37,714 nt of DNA. Origin: Burkholderiales bacterium (GTDB taxonomy: Bacteria > Pseudomonadota > Gammaproteobacteria > Burkholderiales > Burkholderiaceae_C). The stretch lies in NCBI GenBank assembly GCA_017302655.1, contig JAFLDE010000034.1, forward strand, positions 1 through 37,714, given 5' to 3'. Shown piece after piece: positions 6,986-18,851 of this stretch. The position numbers and the translations under genes were made by a program. Under the pieces are notes generated by a model that worked only from the letters and a program-made list of their open reading frames with translations, was not told the origin of the DNA and did not search any database. Numbering within the stretch: the stretch's first letter is position 1; every line of letters begins with the position of its first letter.

Positions 6986-7011
6986 GCCGCCTGGCTGGGC
7001 ATCTGGCCTAG
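6982..7011. terminator. inverted repeat carrying both convergent stop codons (possible terminator)
   Basis: CTAGGCC (6982-6988) and GGCCTAG (7005-7011) pair perfectly around a 16-base loop. The TAG stop of the IclR gene and the TAG stop of the LacI gene each lie inside one arm. There is no T-tract, so intrinsic termination would be weak in either direction. Confidence 0.3.
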
Positions 7012-8024
7012 TACTGGCCGTTGCTGTCCTTGCGTGCCGTGGATTGGCGCAGCATGAGGCGAGGGCTGAGGCGCTCTTCGCTGGCGTCCAGGCTGCCGTC
7101 GATCAACTCGACCAAGCGCGACAGCGCCAACTCACCCATGGCCTCGCTTTGCATGTCCACCGTGGTCAAGGTCGGACTGCTGAAGCGTGCAAAGGGAATG
7201 TCGTCGAAACCCGCCACCGAGACCTGTTCGGGGATGCGGATGCCGGCCGCCTGCGCTTGTTTCATGAATCCCAAAGCGAGCATGTCGTTGAAGCAGACCA
7301 CGGCATCCGGTCGGGCCTCGCCCATCAGCACCTCGCCCACTGCCTTCTCGCCAGCTTCCAAGGTGGGCGACTCGGCGTTGAAGAGCAGTGCCTCGCAGCC
7401 GGCCTTCTTGACCGTCTCCACAAGGCCGGCACGCCGCTCGCCGTCCCAGCGCGCGCCGGGATAGCCCAGGTACGCGATGCGGCGGTGGCCGAGGTCGAGC
7501 AGGTGGCGCGCCAGCATGATCGCGGCGGCACGCCCATCGGCGCTCACGCTGTGCACGCCGTGCTGGCTCGCGCGGCCGAAGAAGACCACTGGCTTGTCCA
7601 GGTCGCGCAGCGTGCTCAGCGCGGCGTCGGGCATGCGCGAGCTGACGATCAGCCCGTCGACCCGGCGGCTGAGGTCCCGCAGCATGTCGCCCTCGGCACT
7701 CAAGCGTTCGCCGGTATCGACGAAGAGCAGGTTGTAGCCGAGTTGTTGAGCCTTGCGGTTGGCGCCCTTCACGATGCCAGTGAAGTGCGGATTGCGGATA
7801 TCCAGGATTACCACCGCAATGGTGTTGGTGCGGCCGGTGATCATGCTCCGCGCCAAGGGGTCGACGCTGAAGCCCAGGGTGTCGATGGCATCGCGCAAGC
7901 GCTGCTCGGTGCTCTCGGTGAAGCGCTGCACACCGTTGACGAAGCGGGAGACGGTGGCGATGGAGACGCCCGCCGTGCGGGCGACGTCCCGCATCGTTGG
8001 GGGGCGTGGGGTACTGGTTGCCAT
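7008..8024 (-). CDS. LacI-family transcriptional regulator of the uronate locus
   Basis: A 338-residue LacI/GalR regulator. The DNA-binding helix-turn-helix with hinge is at residues 11-31 (MRDVARTAGVSIATVSRFVN), and the periplasmic-binding-protein-like effector domain follows from about residue 66 (NTIAVVILDIRNPHF to FDDIPFARFSSPTLTTV). It follows the ABC ATPase gene by 18 bases and is probably cotranscribed with the transporter genes. Two LacI-type operators in the divergent promoter at 12285 and 12405 are the obvious targets. The effector is probably a breakdown intermediate of the imported uronide, for example 2-keto-3-deoxygluconate; that is inference. Confidence 0.92.
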   Translation of the reverse strand: MATSTPRPPTMRDVARTAGVSIATVSRFVNGVQRFTESTEQRLRDAIDTLGFSVDPLARSMITGRTNTIAVVILDIRNPHFTGIVKGANRKAQQLGYNLLFVDTGERLSAEGDMLRDLSRRVDGLIVSSRMPDAALSTLRDLDKPVVFFGRASQHGVHSVSADGRAAAIMLARHLLDLGHRRIAYLGYPGARWDGERRAGLVETVKKAGCEALLFNAESPTLEAGEKAVGEVLMGEARPDAVVCFNDMLALGFMKQAQAAGIRIPEQVSVAGFDDIPFARFSSPTLTTVDMQSEAMGELALSRLVELIDGSLDASEERLSPRLMLRQSTARKDSNGQY

Positions 8025-8042: not shown

Positions 8043-9137
8043 TCAGCCGTGGGAGATCAGGCGCTCGCCTTGGGCATCGAACAAATGAAGGCGGTCGGTG
8101 CTGGCGTGCAGGCGAGCACAGTCACCGCGTCTCCAGGGCGACCGGTCGTCCGCCAGGGCGCTCAGCCGGCCAAGCGGCGTATCCAGCAGCACCAAGGTGT
8201 CGGCGCCACTGAACTCGGTATCGACCACCTCGCCCTGGATCACCAAGCCATCGCTGGGCGTCTCGCCCTCGGCGGGCAGCAGTTGCAGATGCTCCGGCCG
8301 CAAGCCCAGCGTGGCTTTCCCCTGACCGTCTGCGCGCAAGGGCAGGCTCACCGGTCCTTGGCCTGCGGCAACGAAGTTCACGCGATCGCTTTCGTGCAGC
8401 AAGTCTCCTTCGATCAGGTTCATCGCTGGGGATCCGATGAAGCCCGCCACGAAGCGATTGGCCGGTTGCTGATACAGCTCTTGCGGCGTACCGGTCTGTT
8501 CGACGCGACCTGCTCGAAGCACCACGATGCGGTCGCCCATCGACATCGCTTCGACCTGGTCGTGGGTCACGTAAACCGCGGTGCTGCGTAGCCGGCGATG
8601 CAACTCGACGATCTCGCGGCGCACTTGCGCTCGCAGCGCAGCATCGAGGTTGGAGAGTGGTTCGTCGAAGAGGAACACCGCAGGCTCACGGACGATGGCG
8701 CGTCCCATGGCCACGCGCTGGCGCTGCCCACCGCTGAGCTCCCGGGGGTAGCGATCTAGCAGCGCAGTGAGGCCCAGCATCTGCGCAGCGGTGTCGACCT
8801 TCGCGCGAGCGGCTTTGCGCTCCATGCCGGCCAGATGCAGGCTGAAGCCCATGTTGTCTCGCACCGTCATCTGCGGGTAGAGCGCGTAGCTCTGGAACAC
8901 CATGGCGATGTCACGCCGCTTCGGGGGCTCTTCGGTGACGTCGCGCTCGCCGATGTGAATGCTGCCTTCATTGGGCGCCTCCAGGCCGGCGATCAGGCGC
9001 AGCAGCGTGGACTTGCCGGACCCACTGGGACCGACGAGCACACAGAACTCGCCATCGGCGATGTCCACGGACACGTCACGAATGATCTCGGTGTCGTTGA
9101 AGCTCTTGCTGATGTGGCGGAGTTGGATGGCAGACAT
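8043..9137 (-). CDS. ABC transporter ATP-binding protein, UgpC/MsmK type (CUT1)
   Basis: A 364-residue ATPase. Walker A is GPSGSGKST (residues 36-44), with the Q-loop MVFQSYALYPQMTV, signature LSGGQRQRVAMGRA, Walker B VFLFDEPLSNLDA and switch His in VYVTHDQVEA. A C-terminal OB-type regulatory domain (about residues 235-364, LGLRPEHLQLL) marks the MalK/UgpC class that powers carbohydrate import. The frame extends upstream through the intergenic space, but the ATG at 9137 gives the family N-terminus MSAIQLRHISKSF. It lies 65 bases after the second permease gene and just before the LacI gene. It should energise uptake by the two permeases and the binding protein encoded upstream. Confidence 0.93.
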   Translation of the reverse strand: MSAIQLRHISKSFNDTEIIRDVSVDIADGEFCVLVGPSGSGKSTLLRLIAGLEAPNEGSIHIGERDVTEEPPKRRDIAMVFQSYALYPQMTVRDNMGFSLHLAGMERKAARAKVDTAAQMLGLTALLDRYPRELSGGQRQRVAMGRAIVREPAVFLFDEPLSNLDAALRAQVRREIVELHRRLRSTAVYVTHDQVEAMSMGDRIVVLRAGRVEQTGTPQELYQQPANRFVAGFIGSPAMNLIEGDLLHESDRVNFVAAGQGPVSLPLRADGQGKATLGLRPEHLQLLPAEGETPSDGLVIQGEVVDTEFSGADTLVLLDTPLGRLSALADDRSPWRRGDCARLHASTDRLHLFDAQGERLISHG

Positions 9138-9202
9138 GGCGAAAGGGATGTTGCGTGGAGCGCGGTCTGAAGCGGACCGCAGAGCCCCGATTCGTCGGGT
9201 GT

Positions 9203-10039
9203 TCAGCCTTTGACGGCACCCATCAGCAGGCCGCGGTTGAAGGCTTTCTGCATCGCAAGGTAGATGAGGATGGACGGCGCCATGGCGATCAAAGTGATGG
9301 CGACGAACACGGCAGGGGGCATGGTTTCGTCGGCGCGCACCGTGGCCAGCGCCACCGGCAGGGTGTAGAGCGAATCTTGGTTGGCGACGATCAAGGGCAG
9401 CAGGTACTGATCCCAGATCATGATGAATCCGAACACTGCCACGGTGCCCAGCGCTGGCCTCACCAGCGGCAGGATGACCACCCAAAAGATCTGCCACTCG
9501 TTCGCACCATCAACGCGCGCGGCCTCTTCCAATTCGGCCGGTACGCGCCGCATGAACTCGGTGAGCATGAAGATCGAGAACGCCCAGCCGACCACCGGAA
9601 GGATCATGCCGGCGTGGCTGTTGAGCAGGCTGATGCCGAGCAGCGGCAGGTCACCCAGCACGATGTAGAGCGGAATGGCGATGACTTCTTCCGGCAGCAT
9701 CATGGTGCTGAGCATGAGCAGGGACACCAAGGCCGCGCCACGAAATTTCTTGCGAGCCAGGGCATAGGCGGCCAGTGCACTGACTGTCACCTGCAGCACG
9801 GTGCCGATGGTGACCACGATGACCGAGTTGAGCAGGTAGCGCCAGACGCCACTTTGCACCCAGGCGTAGTGAAAGTTGTCGAAGGTGGGCTGCTTGGGCC
9901 AGAGCAGCAGTTGACCTGGCTGAAGGCTGCTGCCGCTGAACGCCGTCACGGCAAAGCCCCAGAAGGGCCCGACAAAAACCAGCAGCAGAGCGGCCAGAAA
10001 AATTCCGCGTCCTGCTTGTTGCCACAGCTTGAAGTTCAT
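9203..10039 (-). CDS. carbohydrate ABC permease, MalG type
   Basis: A 278-residue inner-membrane permease with six predicted helices. The EAA loop that docks the ATPase is seen as LEEAARVDGANEWQIFWVVI, ending in LP. The frame is open much further upstream as a shadow of the other permease gene. The ATG at 10039 overlaps the stop of that gene (ATGA) and yields the normal MalG-type length, so it is chosen. With its partner it forms the translocation path of a CUT1 importer. Confidence 0.92.
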   Translation of the reverse strand: MNFKLWQQAGRGIFLAALLLVFVGPFWGFAVTAFSGSSLQPGQLLLWPKQPTFDNFHYAWVQSGVWRYLLNSVIVVTIGTVLQVTVSALAAYALARKKFRGAALVSLLMLSTMMLPEEVIAIPLYIVLGDLPLLGISLLNSHAGMILPVVGWAFSIFMLTEFMRRVPAELEEAARVDGANEWQIFWVVILPLVRPALGTVAVFGFIMIWDQYLLPLIVANQDSLYTLPVALATVRADETMPPAVFVAITLIAMAPSILIYLAMQKAFNRGLLMGAVKG

Positions 10040-10932
10040 CGCTCGCTCCGGCGGCGCCATTGCAGGTAGATCACGGTGCAGGTGGCCGTGAACGCAAACA
10101 GCAGCACCGAGGCCGCCGACGCATAGCCGTAGTCGAACTGCACGAAACCCTGCTTGTAGATGTGGGTCATGACCACCTCGGTCGCTCCCGCCGGACCGCC
10201 ACCGGTGGTGGCATGCACCTCTGCAAACACGCGGAAGCCGCGGATGAGACCGAGCGTCATCACGATGGTGATGGCGGGGGAAAGTCCCGGCAGAGTGACA
10301 AAGCGCAGCCGATGCCACGCGTTGGCTCCATCGACATCTGCCGCTTCGTACAGCTCGCGGTTGATCGTGGCCAAGCCTGCCACGAAGATCACCGTGTCAT
10401 AGGGGACATGCTTCCAAACGGCCATCGACATCAGCCAGTAGAGGGCAGTCTCGGGGTCGTTGAGGAATTGCTGCAACCCAAAGCCCAGGGCGCCAATCAC
10501 CACGTTGGCGACCCCGTCGGGCGTTGGGGCGTAGAGGATTCGCCAGACCTCGGCGAGCACGGCGGCGCTGGTCACGGCGGGCAGGAAGATGGCCGTGCGC
10601 ACGATGCGCAAGCTGCGCGTGCTTCCCTCCAGGGCAATGGCCAGCAGGAGGCCGAGCACTGCCGAAAGTCCGACGGTGCCGACAACATAGACCAGGGTGT
10701 TGAGGGCGGCCTCTCCCAGCAGCGGGTCGGTGAACACCCGGCGGAAGTTGTCCAGTCCGACGAAGCGGCTCTCCTCCCCGAAGCGAACCTCGTACAGACT
10801 CATCTGCAGGCCGCGAGCCATAGGGATGAACTTGAACCAGGTGAACACGAGCAGCGCTGGCGCAAGGAACAGTGCCGGCATGAGCGCTGCCCGCCAACGA
10901 CCGGCCTTCCGTGCAGGGGTCTTGCCGCTCAT
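10036..10932 (-). CDS. carbohydrate ABC permease, MalF/UgpA type
   Basis: A 298-residue permease with a first helix near residues 16-36 (LMPALFLAPALLVFTWFKFI) and five more helices. The ATPase-docking EAA motif is YEAADVDGANAWHRLRFVTL. It starts at the ATG at 10932, overlapping the stop of the binding-protein gene by ATGA, and ends in the same overlap with the next permease. Such coupling usually keeps the subunits in equal amounts. Neighbouring uronate genes suggest an oligouronide substrate. Confidence 0.92.
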   Translation of the reverse strand: MSGKTPARKAGRWRAALMPALFLAPALLVFTWFKFIPMARGLQMSLYEVRFGEESRFVGLDNFRRVFTDPLLGEAALNTLVYVVGTVGLSAVLGLLLAIALEGSTRSLRIVRTAIFLPAVTSAAVLAEVWRILYAPTPDGVANVVIGALGFGLQQFLNDPETALYWLMSMAVWKHVPYDTVIFVAGLATINRELYEAADVDGANAWHRLRFVTLPGLSPAITIVMTLGLIRGFRVFAEVHATTGGGPAGATEVVMTHIYKQGFVQFDYGYASAASVLLFAFTATCTVIYLQWRRRSER

Positions 10933-12248
10933 GGAGCCTTCACCTTTTGCGCGCTGAGCTCGGCGTCAATGCGCCCGTTGAGCTGGCGCAGGGCCGTACC
11001 GAGGTCGCCATCGCAGCGCGCCAGCGCAGCGTTCAAGCCGTCGGCGATCAGCTGTTGCATGCGCGTCCAGTTGGGAATCCTCGGTTGCATGCGGCCGTTT
11101 TGGGCGTATTGCTGCGCCACCACGTCCCAGCGCGGGTCTTGGTGGACGGCGCCGACGCTCACGGACTTGTGGACCGGCAGGCGCACCACGGACAGGCCGC
11201 CTGGCGGTGGCTTCATGCCCAACGCTTGACCCTCAGGCGAAATCAAAAAGGCGATGAATTTCATCGCCCCCGCCTTGTTCTTTGCGGCCTTGGGCAGGTA
11301 AGCCAGTTCGCCGCCGGCCAGCACCGCCGCACCCCCCGGGCCGGAGGGAGCCGGCAGCACTTCGATGCGGTCACGGCCCGGTTCGCGATCGAAGAGTTGG
11401 ATGTGGTACGGACCGGAGAAATAGATGCCGGCCTGTCCCGACAGGAACGCCTTGTTGGCATCCTGCGTGGTGGCCGTCATGGCGCCCGGCTGCGTCACTT
11501 TCAGCTCGCAGTGCAACTTGCGAAGGAAACCCACTCCCTGTGCCACTTGGGGGCTGTCGGCGCTGGCCTTGAAGCGGCCGTTGCCGGCGTCGCGAACGAA
11601 TTCACCGCCGGCTTGCCAGACGTAGGAGCTGGCGAACCAGGCCGTGTAGCCACGCTGAGACGAAGCCGGCAGCGCAAAGCCATGCGTGTCGGCCTTGCCA
11701 TTGCCGTCTGGGTCCCGTCGGCTGAATGCGATGGCCAGCGCTTCCAATTCCGCCCAGTTGCGAGGCGCCGGTAGACCCAGCTTCTCGCGCCAGTCCTTGC
11801 GCACAAACAGCACATTGGCCTGTGCCGAAACAGGCACGCCGTAGTAGCGACCGTCGACACCGCGCGCCATGTCCCACGCGCGCTCATGCAAATCTCCGCC
11901 GCCTGGCACCGCAGCTGGGTCAACCACATCCAGCAGCCCCATCATCTGAAACTGGCCGGTCGAGCCACTGTCATTGATGATCAGGTCAGGCAGTCCACCC
12001 CCAGCAGCGGCACGCGAAACGCGTTGCTCGAAGTCGGTGGTGGCGTTGAAGTACTCGACGCGGATGCCGGTCTTTGCCGTGAACGCCGTGGCAATGCGGT
12101 CGTAGGTCCGACGACCGTCCGCCCAAGAGCGCGTCCACACCTGGATGCTGTCCTGGGCGTGTGCAATCTGGGGTGCCACTGCAGCCGTGGCCAGCACCAA
12201 GCTGGCCAGCGGGCGCAATCGCGGAAGGCAGTGAAGCAGTCGGTTCAT
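10929..12248 (-). CDS. extracellular solute-binding protein of the CUT1 importer
   Basis: A 439-residue periplasmic protein. The signal peptide has a basic N-terminus, a hydrophobic core LASLVLATAAVA and a likely cut after AHA near residue 31. The mature part resembles family 1 sugar-binding proteins: VWTRSWADGRRTYDRIATAFTA near the start, the VPVSAQANVLFVRKDW hinge region, and GELAYLPKAAKNKAGAMKFI late. It would capture the sugar ligand and pass it to the two permeases. The gene is the first of the minus-strand arm. A LacI-type operator lies 37 bases upstream of the ATG. Confidence 0.92.
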   Translation of the reverse strand: MNRLLHCLPRLRPLASLVLATAAVAPQIAHAQDSIQVWTRSWADGRRTYDRIATAFTAKTGIRVEYFNATTDFEQRVSRAAAGGGLPDLIINDSGSTGQFQMMGLLDVVDPAAVPGGGDLHERAWDMARGVDGRYYGVPVSAQANVLFVRKDWREKLGLPAPRNWAELEALAIAFSRRDPDGNGKADTHGFALPASSQRGYTAWFASSYVWQAGGEFVRDAGNGRFKASADSPQVAQGVGFLRKLHCELKVTQPGAMTATTQDANKAFLSGQAGIYFSGPYHIQLFDREPGRDRIEVLPAPSGPGGAAVLAGGELAYLPKAAKNKAGAMKFIAFLISPEGQALGMKPPPGGLSVVRLPVHKSVSVGAVHQDPRWDVVAQQYAQNGRMQPRIPNWTRMQQLIADGLNAALARCDGDLGTALRQLNGRIDAELSAQKVKAP

Positions 12249-12283: not shown

Positions 12284-12296
12284 GTTAAACGTTTGC
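12284..12296. promoter_or_regulatory. LacI-type operator 1 (binding-protein side)
   Basis: GTTAAACGTTTGC, a near-palindrome centred on the CG step at 12290-12291, the form typical of LacI/GalR operators. It is 37 bases before the binding-protein start codon, a position suited to repression. The core AGTTAAACGTTT is identical to that of the second site. Confidence 0.65.
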
Positions 12297-12404
12297 GTCG
12301 ATTCTTCCACCAATGGCGTGGCTTGTGCTCCGGTGCAACCCTAGTCTTGGCGAAGCATTCATGACTTTCCCTAGGTTTTGCTTGCGGTCATTTGCGCAAA
12401 AGAA

Positions 12405-12417
12405 GTTAAACGTTTAC
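12405..12417. promoter_or_regulatory. LacI-type operator 2 (kduD side)
   Basis: GTTAAACGTTTAC contains the perfect 10-base palindrome TAAACGTTTA centred at 12411-12412. It lies 80 bases before the kduD start and overlaps the weak -10 candidate. The centres of the two operators are 121 bases apart, so both single-site repression and looping are possible. Confidence 0.7.
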
Positions 12418-12432
12418 CGTCTGTGTGTCGCC

Positions 12433-12458
12433 GGGGACCGGGGGCGCCGCCGGGGGGG
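12433..12458 (+). other. G-rich tract able to form a quadruplex in the kduD leader
   Basis: G-runs of four, five and seven are separated by ACC and by CGCCGCC. The seven-G run can supply two tracts, so the segment fits the usual G3+ loop 1-7 rule on the coding strand. It lies between operator 2 and the kduD start and would be in the 5' untranslated RNA. This is a pattern observation only. Confidence 0.35.
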
Positions 12459-12496
12459 CGGTGCGGTTCTTGGCGACGTTTCCACCAACATCGTTC

Positions 12497-13246
12497 ATGA
12501 ATCAGCATTCCTTTTCCTTGCAAGGTCGCCGCGCTCTCGTCACCGGGTGCAACACGGGCCTGGGGCAAGCGATGGCCGTGGCTCTGGCGCAGGCTGGCGC
12601 CGACATCGTGGGCCTGAATCGCAGTGCCCCAGAGGCCACGCAGGCTGAAGTCGAGCGTTGTGGTCGCCAGTTTCTCGATTTGCGCCACGACCTCGTAACC
12701 GGCGGCGATTTGGAGCCCATCTTCGAACAGGCGGGGCGTGTGGACATCCTCGTCAACAACGCGGGCCTGATTCGCCGGGCAGATGCGATCAGCTACAGCG
12801 AGTCTGATTGGGATGCGGTGATCGACGTCAACCTGAAGGCGAGCTTTCGCCTCGCTCAAGGTGTGGCGCGCCGCTGTATGGATCAGGGGCGCCCCGGCAA
12901 GATCATCAACATTGCCTCCATGCTGTCCCTCCAGGGCGGCGTTCGAGTGGTCGCTTACACCGCCAGCAAAAGCGCAGTGATGGGCTTGACTCGCGCCTTG
13001 GCCAACGAGTGGGCGCCGCACGGCATCCAGGTCAACGCGATTGCGCCCGGCTACATGGTGAGCAACAACACGGCGGCGCTGCGCGCCGATGCCCAACGCA
13101 ACCAGGCCATCCTGGCGCGCATTCCCGCTGGTCGCTGGGGACAGCCGGACGACTTGGCTGGGCCCGTGGTGTTCCTGGCCTCTTCGGCCTCCGACTACGT
13201 GAACGGCGCCACCCTGGCGGTGGATGGCGGCTGGTTGGCGCGCTGA
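12497..13246 (+). CDS. kduD: 2-dehydro-3-deoxy-D-gluconate 5-dehydrogenase
   Basis: A 249-residue SDR that closely follows the Escherichia coli KduD pattern: TGCNTGLG (residues 16-23), LVNNAGLIRR, the catalytic Ser141 in IINIASMLS, Tyr154 and Lys158 in YTASK, and the KduD-like end SDYVNGATLAVDGGWLAR. KduD interconverts 2,5-diketo-3-deoxygluconate and 2-keto-3-deoxygluconate with NAD(H), the step after KduI in the breakdown of unsaturated uronates. The ATG at 12497 matches the family N-terminus, although no strong ribosome site precedes it. It is the first gene of the plus-strand arm. Its presence indicates that the locus handles a uronic-acid polymer. kduI is not in the window. Confidence 0.92.
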   Translation: MNQHSFSLQGRRALVTGCNTGLGQAMAVALAQAGADIVGLNRSAPEATQAEVERCGRQFLDLRHDLVTGGDLEPIFEQAGRVDILVNNAGLIRRADAISYSESDWDAVIDVNLKASFRLAQGVARRCMDQGRPGKIINIASMLSLQGGVRVVAYTASKSAVMGLTRALANEWAPHGIQVNAIAPGYMVSNNTAALRADAQRNQAILARIPAGRWGQPDDLAGPVVFLASSASDYVNGATLAVDGGWLAR

Positions 13247-13254
13247 GGTTGAAG

Positions 13255-15045
13255 ATGCAGACGCTGCCGCTGTCCCACCTGTCGATGGATGAGTTGGTGC
13301 AAACCAAGCTCTACCCGCAGCTGGACTATTTCTTCGACAAGCTCAGCCAGGAGATGGACGGGCTGCGCATCGACGGCGTCGAAGCGCTGCACAGCAAGGA
13401 CAAGTTCTTGCCCGGAAAGGTGGCGCTCGGCCTGGGGCATGTGCTGCTCAACACCCCGGCCGACGATCCTCGACTGGACGCCTACCTCGCGCGCTACCGC
13501 GACGTGGCGGAGCTCACAGCGCCGCTGGAGAACCAGAGCTGGGGCATTTACTACTACTTGCTGATGCTGGTGCGATTGCAGCAGGCCGGGTTGCTGGAGC
13601 GGGCGATCCGTCCCGAGACCTTGGACCTGCTGCGTGAGCGGCTTGACTGGCGCAGCTTCGTGGACTTCGCCGACCTGCGCCTGATCAACCTGCCGACCAA
13701 TTACTACGGTGTGGCGTTCAGCGTGGCCCGGCTGCGCGACATGCTGGGCTGGGAGCACGAAGACTTCGCCTCTCGGTTGCTCGACAAGATGCTCGAGCAC
13801 TACGAGCGCTATTCCGGAGAGTTTGGCTTTTCCGACGAGACGGAGGGCGAAGGGCGCTTTGACCGCTACAGCGTGCTGCTGATCGCCGAGGTTTGCCAGC
13901 GCTACGTGCAGACCGGCATGACGGTCCCCGAGCGTTTGCACGCGTTGCTGCGCCGTTCGGTGGATCTCGTGCTGGGCATGGCGAACGCCGACGGTCATGG
14001 ATTCGGGTTCGGTCGCTCGATTGGCCCTTATGGCGACTCGGCCGTGGTGGAGATCCTGTCGGTCGCGGCGTATCTGAAAGTCCTGAACGAGACCGAGCAA
14101 GTTCAAGCCTACGCGTACTCGGTCTGCTGCCTGGCCAAGTACTTGAGCTTTTGGTTCAACCCCGCCATCCAATCGGTCGACATGTGGGGCGGTGGCCGGC
14201 GTACCGATGGCTACCGGGCCAAGCATCGAATCCTGGGTGAGAACTTCTCGCTGATCCACCAGTACATCAGCAGCAGTGCGTTGTGGAATGCCTGTGGTTT
14301 TCAGGGTCGCACACCCCAGCTCGGTCTGCAGCAGTGGTTGCATGAAACACGACCCGCATTCGCTTTGACTTGGTTCTCGCGCGGTCGCTATGACCGCGCG
14401 TTGGCCGTACGACGCGATGCCGACCTGGTGATCTGTTTGCCCCTGATCGATGGGGGCATTGATCAACACGACAACAGCCCGTATTACCCCATCCCCTTTG
14501 CCGAAGGCGTGGTGGCCGGCATCGCCGACAGTGGTCCGGCCCATCCACAGCTGCTGCCACGTTTCGAACTGGAAGACGGCAGTGTGCTGCTCCCGACTTC
14601 GTTCATCCGAGGGGTCCAACACGAAACCCACGAGGACCGAGCCGCACTGAGCTATCGCTTGGATGAGCTCAATCGTGTGGGGAAGCGCAAGCCCGAACCG
14701 GACGACAGGATTCAGGTTCACACCCGCTACGAGTTTGAAGCGGGGCGCATCACGCGCATCGACACCATCCGCTCGACCGAACCGCTTCGACTGCGCGAAC
14801 TGAGCCTGGAGTTCTTGAGTTTCTCCAGTGATGTCCGTCTCAGCGACAACGCCGTCGAATTTGGCGAGGGCCGCGTGACCCGATTCGAGGTGGAGGGACT
14901 GGGCTTGCAGCACGCCCTACCGACGACGCCTGACGACGACTTCAAGTCGCCATCCGGTCCCATGCGCAGTTGGCTGCGCTACCGGTTGGTCGACCACTTC
15001 CTCGATGCCCCTCTGACCCTGCGCTGGACCCTGCACTACCGCTGA
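13255..15045 (+). CDS. unrecognised 596-residue protein, putative uronide-active (alpha/alpha) toroid plus beta-sandwich enzyme
   Basis: I do not recognise a named family with confidence. There is no signal peptide, so it is probably cytoplasmic. Residues 1-350 look like paired helices (an (alpha/alpha)-toroid pattern) with conserved-looking polar motifs: WGIYYYLLML near 96, LPTNYYGVAF at 146-155, FDRYSVLLIAEV near 202, GFGFGRSIGPYGDSAVVE at 249-266 and WGGGRRTDGYRAKH at 311-324. Residues 365-596 look beta-rich, with HDNSPYYPIPFAEGV near 405. The order of motifs recalls DUF2264-type proteins and the two-domain layout of many polysaccharide lyases. It starts 8 bases after kduD and precedes the TonB receptor, so a role in cutting imported oligouronides to monomers is likely but inferred. 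Confidence 0.55.
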   Translation: MQTLPLSHLSMDELVQTKLYPQLDYFFDKLSQEMDGLRIDGVEALHSKDKFLPGKVALGLGHVLLNTPADDPRLDAYLARYRDVAELTAPLENQSWGIYYYLLMLVRLQQAGLLERAIRPETLDLLRERLDWRSFVDFADLRLINLPTNYYGVAFSVARLRDMLGWEHEDFASRLLDKMLEHYERYSGEFGFSDETEGEGRFDRYSVLLIAEVCQRYVQTGMTVPERLHALLRRSVDLVLGMANADGHGFGFGRSIGPYGDSAVVEILSVAAYLKVLNETEQVQAYAYSVCCLAKYLSFWFNPAIQSVDMWGGGRRTDGYRAKHRILGENFSLIHQYISSSALWNACGFQGRTPQLGLQQWLHETRPAFALTWFSRGRYDRALAVRRDADLVICLPLIDGGIDQHDNSPYYPIPFAEGVVAGIADSGPAHPQLLPRFELEDGSVLLPTSFIRGVQHETHEDRAALSYRLDELNRVGKRKPEPDDRIQVHTRYEFEAGRITRIDTIRSTEPLRLRELSLEFLSFSSDVRLSDNAVEFGEGRVTRFEVEGLGLQHALPTTPDDDFKSPSGPMRSWLRYRLVDHFLDAPLTLRWTLHYR

Positions 15046-15096
15046 ACCCGGAGGACCGGCTTGACCGGCCCCATCTTTCCCGACTGGAGACACCCG

Positions 15097-17682
15097 ATGA
15101 CCCGTGAATCGCGCCGACCGCTTTCCCAAGTCAACCCACTGGCCCTGGCCGTGACCCTGCTGGCCTCCGGTGTGCACGCGCAGTCTGCGCAGCCCGCCAC
15201 CAGCAAGCCCGAGGCCTTAGAAACCGTCATCGTCACTGGCATTCGCGGTGCGCTGCAACTGGCCAATGATGTCAAGCGCAACGCGCCGCAGGTGATGGAC
15301 GCGATCAGCGCCGAAGACGTCGGCAAGCTGCCCGATGCCAACGTCGCCGAGGCCTTGCAGCGCGTCACCGGCGTGCAGGTCACGCGGGTTTTCGGCGAGG
15401 GCCAGTCGGTGTCCGTACGCGGCCTGCCGCTGGTGCGCGTGGAGGTCGATGGCCGTACGCTGCTTGGTTATTCCGCTCGCCTGTCGCCGCCGGAGAACGA
15501 GCAGCTCGGTCGTAACTCCGGTCTGGACACCGTGCCCTCGGGGCTCTTCGGCCGCCTGGAGGTCCGCAAGTCGCCCACTGCGGCGCAGGTCGAAGGTGGC
15601 TTGAGCGGCTCGGTGAACCTGGTCACGCCTGACCCCCTGGACTTCCGCGGCAACACCCTGGCGGTGCGTGCTGCGGCCGAGTATTCCAAGCGCGTCAACA
15701 AGGTGCAGCCGGTGGCTTCGGCCCTGATTGCGCAGCAGTTCATGGATCGCCAGTTCGGCGTGTTGCTCGCCGTTGACCACACCGAGCGCGTGACGTCGAC
15801 GCAGGCCTTCGAGCGCAACAACTTCTTCAATCGCACCGGCGCGACCAGCGATCTCAACGGCGACGGCGTGGCCGACATCAGCGGCGACCGCATGCAGTAC
15901 GAGGAATTCACCACCGACCGATCGCGCACCGGCGTCACCGCCGAAGCGCAGTGGCGGCCGAGCAAAGCGCTGGAGTTCAAGGCGGAGGCCATCTGGTCCC
16001 AGCTCAAGACCGAGCGCGAGCAGGATTTCCTGATGTGGCGCTACGCCGGTAAGGCGATCACCAACCCGGTGTTCGACGGCAATTTCATCGTCGCCGGCGA
16101 TTCGCTGGGCACGATGCAGCAGGCTGGCCTTTACCGTGCCGAACCGACCGAGAGCCGCCTGCTCGCCCTGAGCGCCAAGTGGAAGCCCTACGACGCACTG
16201 ACCATCAAGCCCGAACTGAGCATCAGCCGCGGCACCCTGGAGCAGACGATTCGTCAGATCACCATCGACTCGGTCAATGCCAATGTGCCCGGTCGCTTCG
16301 ATTACCGTGCCGGCGAAGTGCCGAGCCTGAGTCTGGGCAACTTCGATGTCACCAACATCGCCAATTACAAGCCGGCCACCAACGGCGTGCGCGCCAACCT
16401 GCTGGTGGCCAACATGGAGGAGAAGGTCGGCAAGCTCGACCTGCAGCACGCGCTGCAGGCCGGGCCCTTGACCGGGGTGTCGGCGGGCTTGCGTTGGCGC
16501 AATCTGGAGGCGCGCTCCAACGCCTACCGCAGCCAGATCACGCCGACGCTTGCGGAGATCCAGCCTTACCTGCGCGTGCGGCCGGGCGACTTCCTGCCGG
16601 ATGTCGGCGTGAGTTTCCCCCGCCCCTTCCTGACCACCGTCGCGGCGCGTGACTACATCCTGGAGCGCGCCTCGGGGGGCAAGCCGCTGCTGCCCAACGC
16701 CTCGCGGGACTACGACCTGGAGGAACGCGCCTTGGCCGCCTATGTGATGGCCGACTTCGACGGTGAGCTCTTCGGAATGGAGGTCTCGGCCAACGCCGGC
16801 CTGCGTGCCGTGCGCACTGACTTCGGCGTCAATACCCTGCTCAACGGCGTGACTCCGGTGCGCGATGAAAACCGCTACACCAACACGCTGCCCAGCGGCA
16901 ACCTGGTGCTGCATGTGAACTCCGATTTCCTGGTGCGGCTGTCCGGGTCGCGCACTCTGCAGCAGGCCGGCATTGCCGAGCTGGCGCCGTCGATCTTCGT
17001 CAACATCACCAACCGCACGGCCACCGGCGGCAACGCCAGCCTACGCCCGACCTTGTCGGACAACCTGGACCTGAGCTTCGAGCTCTACGGAAAGGGAAGC
17101 TCGTTGATCTCAGGGGCGGTGTTCAGCAAGCGCGTCAGCGATGTACAAGCCAACAGCACCGAGCTGCGCACCTTTGGCGGCTTCGAGCAACTGGGCGCGA
17201 TTCCCTACACACGCCCAGATAACGTCGGTTCGGCGCGGGTCAAAGGTCTGGAACTGGGCGTACAGCGCTTCTTTGACTTTCTGCCCGCGCCCTTCAATGG
17301 CTTCGGGGTGATTGCCAACTACACCTTATCGGACGGCGAGGGCGACGGTGGCCTGCCCCTGGTCGGCGTCTCCAAGCACAGCTACAACCTGATCGCGTTG
17401 TATGAGCGTGGCGCCTTCAGCGCCAGACTGGCTTACAACGCCCGCGACAAGGCGGCCTTCGAGTTCACTCAAGGTCGGCCCAGCTACATCGACAAGCGCT
17501 CGCAACTGGACCTGCAGTTCGGCTACGAGTTCGCCAAGGGCATGTCTTTGCAGATCCAGGCGCAAAACCTTAACCCGAAGCAGTCTGCCACGGTGGAGTT
17601 CAGCCAGATCGGCGCGGTGGCCCTCAACAGCTACGCGCTGGCCGAGACGCGCTACTCCGTCGGGCTGCGCGCCAAGTTCTGA
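15097..17682 (+). CDS. TonB-dependent receptor, Xanthomonas/Caulobacter sugar-uptake type
   Basis: An 861-residue outer-membrane receptor. After a signal peptide (core LALAVTLLASGVHAQ) comes a TonB-box-like ETVIVTGIRGALQ, then a plug domain with the phrase SAEDVGKLPDANVAEALQRV, characteristic of the TonB-Xanth-Caul group that imports carbohydrates. The plug continues to about residue 190. The rest is a beta-barrel ending in a C-terminal Phe (YSVGLRAKF), the outer-membrane insertion signal. The ATG at 15097 has GGAG seven bases upstream; a TTG at 15061 is less likely. It lies 51 bases after the 596-residue gene. It would import the uronic-acid glycan fragments that the lyase and the ABC system then process. 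Confidence 0.9.
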   Translation: MTRESRRPLSQVNPLALAVTLLASGVHAQSAQPATSKPEALETVIVTGIRGALQLANDVKRNAPQVMDAISAEDVGKLPDANVAEALQRVTGVQVTRVFGEGQSVSVRGLPLVRVEVDGRTLLGYSARLSPPENEQLGRNSGLDTVPSGLFGRLEVRKSPTAAQVEGGLSGSVNLVTPDPLDFRGNTLAVRAAAEYSKRVNKVQPVASALIAQQFMDRQFGVLLAVDHTERVTSTQAFERNNFFNRTGATSDLNGDGVADISGDRMQYEEFTTDRSRTGVTAEAQWRPSKALEFKAEAIWSQLKTEREQDFLMWRYAGKAITNPVFDGNFIVAGDSLGTMQQAGLYRAEPTESRLLALSAKWKPYDALTIKPELSISRGTLEQTIRQITIDSVNANVPGRFDYRAGEVPSLSLGNFDVTNIANYKPATNGVRANLLVANMEEKVGKLDLQHALQAGPLTGVSAGLRWRNLEARSNAYRSQITPTLAEIQPYLRVRPGDFLPDVGVSFPRPFLTTVAARDYILERASGGKPLLPNASRDYDLEERALAAYVMADFDGELFGMEVSANAGLRAVRTDFGVNTLLNGVTPVRDENRYTNTLPSGNLVLHVNSDFLVRLSGSRTLQQAGIAELAPSIFVNITNRTATGGNASLRPTLSDNLDLSFELYGKGSSLISGAVFSKRVSDVQANSTELRTFGGFEQLGAIPYTRPDNVGSARVKGLELGVQRFFDFLPAPFNGFGVIANYTLSDGEGDGGLPLVGVSKHSYNLIALYERGAFSARLAYNARDKAAFEFTQGRPSYIDKRSQLDLQFGYEFAKGMSLQIQAQNLNPKQSATVEFSQIGAVALNSYALAETRYSVGLRAKF

Positions 17683-18851
17683 TGCGACGCTGGCTTGCCC
17701 TGGCGTTGGCCGGCCTGCTGCTGAGGCCGGTGGCGGCTGAGCCCTGGCTGCGCCCCGCCGACCTCCCTTGGGCTCCGCCGGCGCTGGCTGCCGAGGCGCG
17801 CGCTGTGCTGCTGGCGCAAGCCGATGTGGCGCTTCAACTTGTGCCGCCTACGGTGCTTGACAAAACCCTGCTGCCGGCTAGCGGCGATCGTCGGGACTAC
17901 CTGAGCTTTGGTCCCTACTGGTGGCCGGACCCGACCAAGCCCGACGGTTTGCCCTATGTGCGCCGGGACGGCCAGCGCAACCCGGCGTCCGCCAACGGGA
18001 GCGATGCGGCCGCACTGGCGCGAATAGGTCGTGCTGTTGAAGTGCTCGGTCTGGCTTACGAAGCGACCGGCGACGAACGCTACGCGAGCAAGGCTGCGCA
18101 ACTCGCCAGGGTCTGGTTCCTTGACGATCAAAGAGGCATGAGGCCCAACTTCCTGCATGCGCAGGCCATCCCAGGTGTCACGTCGGGGCGCGGCATCGGC
18201 ATCATCGAAGCGCGCTGGCTGATCGCCATCAACGAAGGCCTGGCTCGGCTGGCGGGATCGATCGCCTGGGGCGAGGCCGAGCAGGCAGCGCTGCGCGAAT
18301 GGATGGCAGTTTTCTACGGCTGGTTGCGCAGCCATCCCAATGGCTTGGACGAGGAGGCCGAGCACAACAACCACGGCAGTTGGTACGACGCGCTGGTGGT
18401 CCACCTGGCCCTGGTGCTGGGGGAGCAGGGTCAGGCGCGGGAGCGACTGCGAGTGGGCCTGCAGCGCCGGCTGGAGGCGCACGTCGATCCGGACGGCAGC
18501 CAGCCGCATGAACTGGCTCGCACGCTTTCGCTGGACTACTCCCTGTTCAACCTGGAGGCCTTGGCCATTTGCGCCGAACTGGGCGAGCGCGTCGGCGTCG
18601 ACTGGTGGGGCCATGTCAGCAGCGACGGCCGCAGTCTGGCCAAGGCGCTTCGCTACCTCCTGCCTTACTTGCTGGATCCGAACAAGCCCTGGCCCCATGC
18701 GCAGCTCAAGCCTGCCGATCGCCGCCGTCTCATTCCAATGATTGCGGTTGCGGCCCGGGGGCGAGCCGATGCCGAGTTGACGGCCGCCCTGCGCGCGGCC
18801 TTACCCACGGCCGAGGCGGGCAAGCTCGGGCGCATCCTTTCAGGGTGGTGA
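17682..18851 (+). CDS. secreted alginate-lyase-family polysaccharide lyase
   Basis: A 389-residue protein with a signal peptide (LALALAGLLLRPVAAE), so periplasmic or outer-surface. The alginate_lyase (PF05426) pattern is clear: RDYLSFGPYWWPDPTKPDGL at 71-90, VRRDGQRNP, VWFLDDQRGMRPN, IPGVTSGRGIGIIEARWL, then the active-site stretch HNNHGSWYD (Asn230, His231) and Arg280 with Tyr286, matching the Asn/His/Arg/Tyr set of PL5-like lyases. These enzymes cut (1,4)-linked uronic acids by beta-elimination, leaving a 4,5-unsaturated end. Substrate could be alginate, glucuronan or another uronan; families PL5 and PL38 are both possible. Its ATG overlaps the receptor stop (TGATG), so translation is probably coupled. 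Confidence 0.85.
   Translation: MRRWLALALAGLLLRPVAAEPWLRPADLPWAPPALAAEARAVLLAQADVALQLVPPTVLDKTLLPASGDRRDYLSFGPYWWPDPTKPDGLPYVRRDGQRNPASANGSDAAALARIGRAVEVLGLAYEATGDERYASKAAQLARVWFLDDQRGMRPNFLHAQAIPGVTSGRGIGIIEARWLIAINEGLARLAGSIAWGEAEQAALREWMAVFYGWLRSHPNGLDEEAEHNNHGSWYDALVVHLALVLGEQGQARERLRVGLQRRLEAHVDPDGSQPHELARTLSLDYSLFNLEALAICAELGERVGVDWWGHVSSDGRSLAKALRYLLPYLLDPNKPWPHAQLKPADRRRLIPMIAVAARGRADAELTAALRAALPTAEAGKLGRILSGW

Follow-up and report, generated by a model that had tools for sequence, protein, structure and literature searches.

The enzymes that the protein described here probably works most like belong to the GH154 and PL33 groups. BcGDH and BT_3677 are glucuronate dehydratases, an activity that has been proposed for the entire GH154 family; in the accessible text of that report, Y229, R285 and Y289 are the proposed key residues of BcGDH and the name DUF2264 is not used (PMC12269599). 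For PL33 lyases, the accessible part of the source gives N238, Y291 and H444 as key residues (PMC11848413). The PL38 enzyme 8BDQ is described as a helical barrel lyase in the available text of the PL35 paper, which also states that alginate lyases carry a histidine at the position where other GAGases have an asparagine (PMC12088678).

Here we analysed a 37,714-nucleotide stretch of DNA (the window), which is the entire contig C132 of a 4.4 Mb Burkholderiales genome with a completeness of 99.96%, and focused on a 596-residue protein without family assignment, termed X. With a probability of about one half, we consider X to be a two-domain beta-eliminase of a new kind with a toroid fold, which most likely acts on oligouronides as an exo-lyase. 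The PF05426/PL38-like lyase encoded nearby would cut the polymer extracellularly, the TonB-dependent receptor and the ABC importer would carry oligouronides into the cytoplasm, and X would strip off uronate units singly by beta-elimination, providing the exo-acting, monomer-forming step, with KduD passing the products on toward ketodeoxygluconate.

The location of X between kduD and the TonB-dependent receptor gene, proposed in an earlier sequence-only reading of the window, was confirmed by translation of the open reading frame and by the TIGR01832 and TIGR01782 matches of the two neighbours (Table 1). The LacI regulator, ATPase, two permeases and binding protein are encoded in that order on the minus strand, followed by kduD, X, the receptor and the PF05426 lyase on the plus strand. 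The X start codon is found 8 nt past the kduD stop codon with GAGG immediately 5′, the gap between X and the receptor ORF is 15 nt (~50 nt with the later receptor ATG), and the receptor stop and the lyase ATG share one base; given this spacing, the four plus-strand genes look like a single operon. X is a real gene, beyond what chance would produce, since its open frame is kept by 13 homologues at 33–53% identity to the window protein. A long ORF (13195–14913, minus strand) runs antisense to X. Neither Rfam families at the gathering threshold nor tRNAs were detected in the window.

Table 1. Coordinates of the genes, operators and candidate active-site motifs in the window.
Feature	Coordinates	Strand	Remarks
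LacI-family regulator	7008..8024	-	Relatives adjoin X in L022 (57%), L023 (52% and 42%) and L018 (49%)
ABC importer ATPase, MalK/UgpC type	8043..9137	-	Start chosen by us within ORF 8043-9497
ABC importer permease 2 (BPD_transp_1)	9203..10048	-	Start chosen by us within ORF 9203-10318
ABC importer permease (BPD_transp_1)	10036..10932	-	Pfam domain
ABC importer solute-binding protein (SBP_bac_1)	10929..12248	-	Pfam domain; divergent from kduD
LacI-type operator, copy 1	12284..12297	+	2 mismatches to GKTAAACGTTTAMC
LacI-type operator, copy 2	12405..12418	+	Exact match to GKTAAACGTTTAMC
KduD, 2-dehydro-3-deoxy-D-gluconate 5-dehydrogenase	12497..13246	+	TIGR01832, E 4.9e-117; ATG picked by eye within ORF 12425-13246
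X, 596 aa, family-less	13255..15045	+	Stop included; helical ~50-365, beta ~371-596 (weak model)
N149-Y150	13699..13704	+	Invariant 14/14; candidate enolate-stabilising Asn
D203-R204-Y205-S206	13861..13872	+	Invariant 14/14; Y205 candidate catalytic residue
G253-R254-S255-I-G-P-Y259	14011..14031	+	G253, R254, S255 and Y259 invariant; resembles DUF2264/GH154 GRSxxY
H405-D-N-S-P-Y410-Y-P-I-P-F	14467..14499	+	Beta part; Y410 invariant, H405 in 9/14
TonB-dependent receptor	15061..17682	+	TIGR01782, E 1e-168; Pfam; TTG start, alternative ATG ~36 nt in
PF05426 lyase, 389 aa	17682..18851	+	N-terminus looks like a signal by eye; nearest chains in the PDB are 3nfv and the PL38 enzyme 8bdq

X could be placed in none of the families tested. 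At E ≤ 1 it had a single Pfam match, well under the cut-off of that model; there were no NCBIfam matches at E ≤ 0.01 and none to PDB sequences at E ≤ 1, or at E ≤ 10 with a 14-sequence profile. These searches agree with the sequence-only reading, which could name no family for X and had listed DUF2264, polysaccharide lyase families and GH88/GH105 as places to look. PF07940 (heparinase II/III), PF05426 (the family of the PL38 neighbour) and PF07470 (GH88/GH105) matched neither X nor its 14-member family. DUF2264 (PF10022) fared likewise as an HMM, with 0/14 members matching at E ≤ 1, although X and DUF2264 do have motifs in common, as described below. Matches to alpha-amylase (E 0.37), BRK, prenyltransferase and DUF7345 models involved one member each and were put down to chance. 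Kinship with PL5/PF05426 proteins was rejected: although the Asn-Tyr spacing looks alike by eye, the hhalign probability was 0.7% and its 37 aligned columns lay in another part of the sequence. Kinship with heparinase II/III proteins was also rejected (hhalign 0.2%); the alignment used (A6) comprised five of nine PF07940 loci, with L036 and L037 left out and L038 and L039, termed PL15-like (43% identity; the L038 ORF is cut by the locus end), moved to alignment A7. A phage or viral origin of X was discarded, as we obtained no matches in 50,697 phage records and no confirmed ones in two viral-contig scans. A literature search of titles and abstract openings found no papers describing the X family, nor any that could be traced through the Asticcacaulis homologue by its accession or locus tag.

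The X family is rare and its distribution is patchy. Homologues were detected in 4/300 genomes of the order, 2/369 of the class, 4/299 of the family and 3/398 of the phylum (the two besides the window genome had already been met in the order search), all counts including the genome of the window wherever it was searched. In searches centred on other genomes, homologues are carried by two of 47 genomes in the family of G521 (G521 itself among them), by one of four in the genus of G879 (G879) and by the sole genome in the genus of G746; others were found on two Rhodocyclales contigs and in five of 72,556 plasmid records. The alignment of X with its 13 homologues (A2, n = 14), which omits two of the five plasmid matches, H2 (Paraburkholderia) and H5 (Burkholderia cenocepacia), as well as the G1326 homologue, contains 82 invariant residues. 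In G1326, a genome related to G521, the homologue (C2:106640–111047; L026, L027) is split into two matching parts ~3.5 kb apart, possibly by an insertion.

Structure models suggest that X consists of an (alpha/alpha) toroid and an antiparallel beta domain. The two AlphaFold2 models were both built from the same three sequences, so that they are not independent, and have pLDDT values of 53.1 and 54.0 and pTM values of 0.43–0.49. Each shows, at low confidence, 16–17 helices up to about residue 363 and mainly strands from residue 371, in line with the helical N-terminal and beta-rich C-terminal halves recognised in the sequence-only reading. The models hint at the toroid fold proposed along with that layout: PL33 lyases ranked first in Foldseek searches with both models (matches 1–10 for model 1 and 1–9 for model 2), but the models are weak and their TM-scores to PL33 are 0.24–0.33. 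The top structural matches are PL33-type lyases (cf. PL12, PL15, PL17, PL21 and PL39), which have a helical-then-beta layout like that predicted for X. In the list of model 1, PL33 is followed by PL39, dermatan-sulfate (DS) epimerase and a glucanotransferase, and glucuronate dehydratase takes rank 17. In that of model 2, the next matches are to GH154 and to glucuronate dehydratase, and after them come xanthan lyase, alpha-2-macroglobulin and an endoglucanase; the glucanotransferase in the first list and the alpha-2-macroglobulin and endoglucanase in the second have unrelated folds.

The four motifs quoted in the sequence-only reading are all present, at residues 146, 251, 311 and 405. Invariant stretches of the helical part are W96-G-x-Y-Y, N149-Y150, G191-F-x-D-E195, R201-x-D-R-Y-S206, G253-R-S...Y259 and W311..R315..D318-x-Y-R321..R325..G-E-N330, and those of the beta part are R387-D388 and P409-Y410; many of the invariant residues are placed by the weak model in or near turns that precede helices. 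The candidate active site (residues 187–206 and 244–259) has pLDDT values below 50 in the models. The Asn-Tyr spacing of 56 in X (N149–Y205) is near the 53 of the PL33 residues N238–Y291, and PL33 H444 would compare with H405 (Table 1), as far as the accessible text of PMC11848413 goes. The H-x-H-x-D motif of heparinase-type lyases was found in 1/14 X proteins, compared with 7/7 heparinase/PL15 proteins and 4/164 unrelated ORFs. In the beta-elimination that we propose, N149, together with R254, would neutralise the carboxylate, Y205 would abstract the proton at C5, and either this tyrosine or Y259 would protonate the leaving oxygen to yield a 4,5-unsaturated uronate. An asparagine at the putative position of N149, read against the available text on GAGases cited above, and the UxaC gene near X in L023 weakly suggest that the substrate is D-glucuronate.

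X resembles DUF2264/GH154 in its motifs. A D-x-Y...GRS-x(2,3)-Y pattern is found in 14/14 X proteins, 10/10 DUF2264 proteins and 0/179 other proteins (6 PF05426, 5 heparinase, 2 PL15, 2 GH88 and 164 other ORFs); as it was framed after both families had been seen, it is supportive and does not amount to a blind test. Adding N-W/Y to its front keeps 10/14 X and 10/10 DUF2264 proteins, the four Burkholderia-type members failing because their Asn-Tyr distance is 75 rather than 55–57. In both families, N-W/Y, D-x-Y and GRS..Y follow one another in this sequence and at roughly similar intervals, and six two-domain DUF2264 proteins are similar to X in length and in the residue numbers of the motifs (149, 202 and 255 in L044; 149, 203 and 253 in the window). 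Structures of GH154 type that are matched by a DUF2264 protein are 8oi4, 9o4u and 9nwf, the last two being of the beta-D-glucuronate dehydratase BcGDH. The BcGDH residues Y229, R285 and Y289 named in the accessible text of PMC12269599 would correspond, with a presumed offset of 5, to the tyrosine in D-x-Y and to the arginine and the second tyrosine, both in GRSxxY. Homology between X and DUF2264 is not proved by the profile comparisons. The profile-profile score of 25.94 stands against a maximum of 25.71 in 150 shuffles (probability 3%), the two-domain DUF2264 subset scores 21.5, inside its 100-shuffle null (maximum 28.8), and a 10-row set, which has no null of its own, scores 28.98. The DUF2264 alignment (A9, n = 10) holds all three proteins from 150 genomes and seven of 259 from plasmid records, L050 being left out as a record without annotation. 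The DUF2264 HMM does not place X above unrelated proteins either, and with hhalign values of 0.4–3% and no rise in HMM rank, we treat the likeness as motif resemblance alone.

This resemblance underlies the main rival explanation, that X is a GH154/DUF2264-like uronate dehydratase, which would take water, not sugar, off a saturated non-reducing-end glucuronate and leave a 4,5-unsaturated end for hydrolysis by another enzyme. The invariant Y205, R254 and Y259 follow the order of the three BcGDH residues in our mapping (PMC12269599, accessible text), the two-domain motif positions and the matches of model 2 to 8oi4 and 9nwf point the same way, and GH88 genes adjoin some members of DUF2264/GH154 as well as of X, GH88-family proteins being found near X in L015 and L018. 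However, PF10022 is unmatched in all 14 members, the Arg and Tyr of GRS..Y are one residue further apart in X than in DUF2264, and 7/8 X-bearing genomes lack the partner family: PF07470 was not found in them, including the genome of the window, and G269 is its sole carrier (among those without it, G746 is 86% complete). We regard the dehydratase explanation as unlikely, though it is the one that survives best beside the lyase.

The same missing family invites the explanation that X is itself a hydrolase, either a new unsaturated uronyl hydrolase or a beta-glucuronidase with a toroid fold, that takes the place of GH88/GH105. The two would occupy the same proposed position in the pathway and share the toroid; of 189 proteins searched with the HMM of the X family, the two from GH88 score best outside that family (E 0.17 and 0.32), and the invariant residues include the acids D194, E195 and D203. 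Yet these GH88 matches are weak and lie over differing toroid segments, L015 and L018 hold GH88 besides X, PF07470 is unmatched, the best fold matches are lyases, and the invariant residues of X are of lyase or dehydratase type. A hydrolase thus appears improbable, and ranks behind the dehydratase. In the sequence-only reading, X may be a new exo-lyase or unsaturated uronyl hydrolase in a locus otherwise devoid of a monomer-forming enzyme; the latter point is supported, as GH88/GH105 is absent from the nearly complete genome of the window, and of the two activities, which the context supports and the predicted fold supports in part, an exo-lyase fits better because GH88 is unmatched and the invariant residues resemble those of beta-elimination enzymes. 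A last alternative makes X a uronyl C5-epimerase, or some further enzyme of this fold that acts on sugars without cleaving them, as the match of model 1 to DS-epimerase (6hzn, match 13, E 1.9e-5) and the link between these folds in the accessible part of the PL33 paper (PMC11848413) might suggest. It is very improbable, since a cytoplasmic epimerase would leave the monomer-forming step unfilled in a locus that appears to be catabolic.

The context of oligouronide use claimed for X is upheld beyond the window, with uronate or oligouronide genes within ~10 kb of X in 7/9 main-clade loci. These genes encode KduD and the PF05426 lyase in the window; GH88 with DUF4861, two PF05426 proteins, two annotated KduI proteins, GH2 and GH3 in L015; a GH88-family protein and an epimerase-like protein in L018; three PF05426 proteins in L021; KduI, KduD at 68%, an enolase-superfamily protein, a PfkB kinase and an epimerase-like protein in L022; glucuronate isomerase UxaC in L023; and a galactarate/altronate dehydratase with a TRAP transporter in L024. 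PL38/PF05426 proteins, to which X has no detected sequence relation, are thus genetic partners of X in the window, L015 and L021. In L002 and L003, and in the four loci of Burkholderia type (L016, L017, L019 and L020), no uronate genes were recognised among the six neighbours scanned by Pfam or with the window proteins as tblastn queries. The window, L015, L018, L020 and L023 have TonB receptors in the vicinity of X, and in L022 a protein of the same cluster, a candidate receptor, adjoins X. The three PF05426 proteins around X in L021 (782–18321) are large (795–1028 aa), and two more proteins of that region (536 and 474 aa) have no Pfam family. In L018, a 476-aa ORF without a Pfam match (17325–18752) adjoins the GH88-family protein.

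KduI (PF04962) was not found in the genome of the window or in three others, and was found in four. This leaves a gap ahead of KduD in the genome of the window, where an isomerase other than KduI may act as a replacement. A contig of this genome other than that of X (C5:9320–11705; L033, L038) has two genes, one per strand, for proteins with heparinase II/III domains; one of the proteins is itself PL15-like and shares 43% identity with a PL15-like protein from G677. The two could be further oligouronide-acting enzymes, and the pair possibly represents a second polyuronate or exopolysaccharide system.

The suggestion that X is cytoplasmic and lacks a signal peptide fits the window copy and one of the two G746 copies, but judged by hydropathy and pattern, the N-terminus resembles that of exported proteins in 12/14 members, of which seven look Sec-like and five carry a lipobox. 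By hydropathy alone, the most hydrophobic N-terminal 12-mer averages 0.66 in the window protein, 1.18 in the other signal-less copy and 2.0–2.7 in the 12 exported-looking relatives. The two signal-less copies are sisters in the tree, with a support of 85/88, which is below its 95/80 mark, and adjoin an exported pair from G746 and G879 (support 100/100). One duplication and one signal loss would be the simplest reading of this arrangement.

Binding-protein ABC importers often serve oligosaccharides, and SSF, TRAP and MFS transporters are typical of monomers. The signal-less window copy accompanies a binding-protein ABC importer, and loci with exported copies carry SSF (L022, L023), TRAP (L024, which additionally has a family-3 binding protein) or MFS (L015) transporters; no uptake system was assigned to X in L018, L021, L002, L003 and the four Burkholderia-type loci. 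This pairing is the pattern expected from a monomer-forming enzyme. The rule is imperfect, because no ABC importer like that of the window was found by tblastn on the 38.7 kb contig with the signal-less G746 copy (L023). The exported and signal-less paralogues of L023 (260–2104 and 7880–9676) belong to a single cluster, with the genes for an SSF transporter and a TonB receptor between them.

A fuller version of the lyase reading, which we put forward tentatively and with less confidence than the activity itself, is that X represents a new polysaccharide-lyase family in which a GH154-dehydratase-like toroid site is joined to a lyase-like beta domain. It would degrade oligoglucuronides as an exo-lyase in place of GH88/GH105, and duplication and signal loss would have moved the monomer-forming step from the periplasm to the cytoplasm together with the ABC importer. 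If this is true, X would be a candidate for a new CAZy family, filling the step from oligouronide to monomer in bacteria without GH88/GH105, and a link from the toroid lyases to the GH154 dehydratases, a recently recognised group; uronate pathways would also become easier to predict wherever the X family occurs.

The LacI regulator encoded beside the importer would control the proposed pathway. Both LacI-type operator copies of the window are located between the binding-protein gene and kduD, where two were observed against 0.01 expected in the window at that stringency. Their palindromic core, TAAACGTTTA, occurs twice in the window and upstream in L018 and L022, with exact operator copies near the LacI genes of these two loci; in L018, a one-mismatch operator is also present ~20 nt 5′ of the X start that we chose, and another at 7910, distant from X. 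A one-mismatch operator lies ~5 kb from X in L002, and none was found in L003, L015, L016, L017, L019, L020, L021, L023, L024 or L062. The shared core predicts a common regulon and, together with the related LacI genes beside X (Table 1), suggests that X probably belongs to a uronide regulon under LacI control, at least in the window and in L018, with L022 as a likely further case. Allowing one mismatch, the core is found at 7910, 10985 and 12195 in L018, at 4202 in L022 and at 15060 in L002, mostly 5′ of uronide genes.
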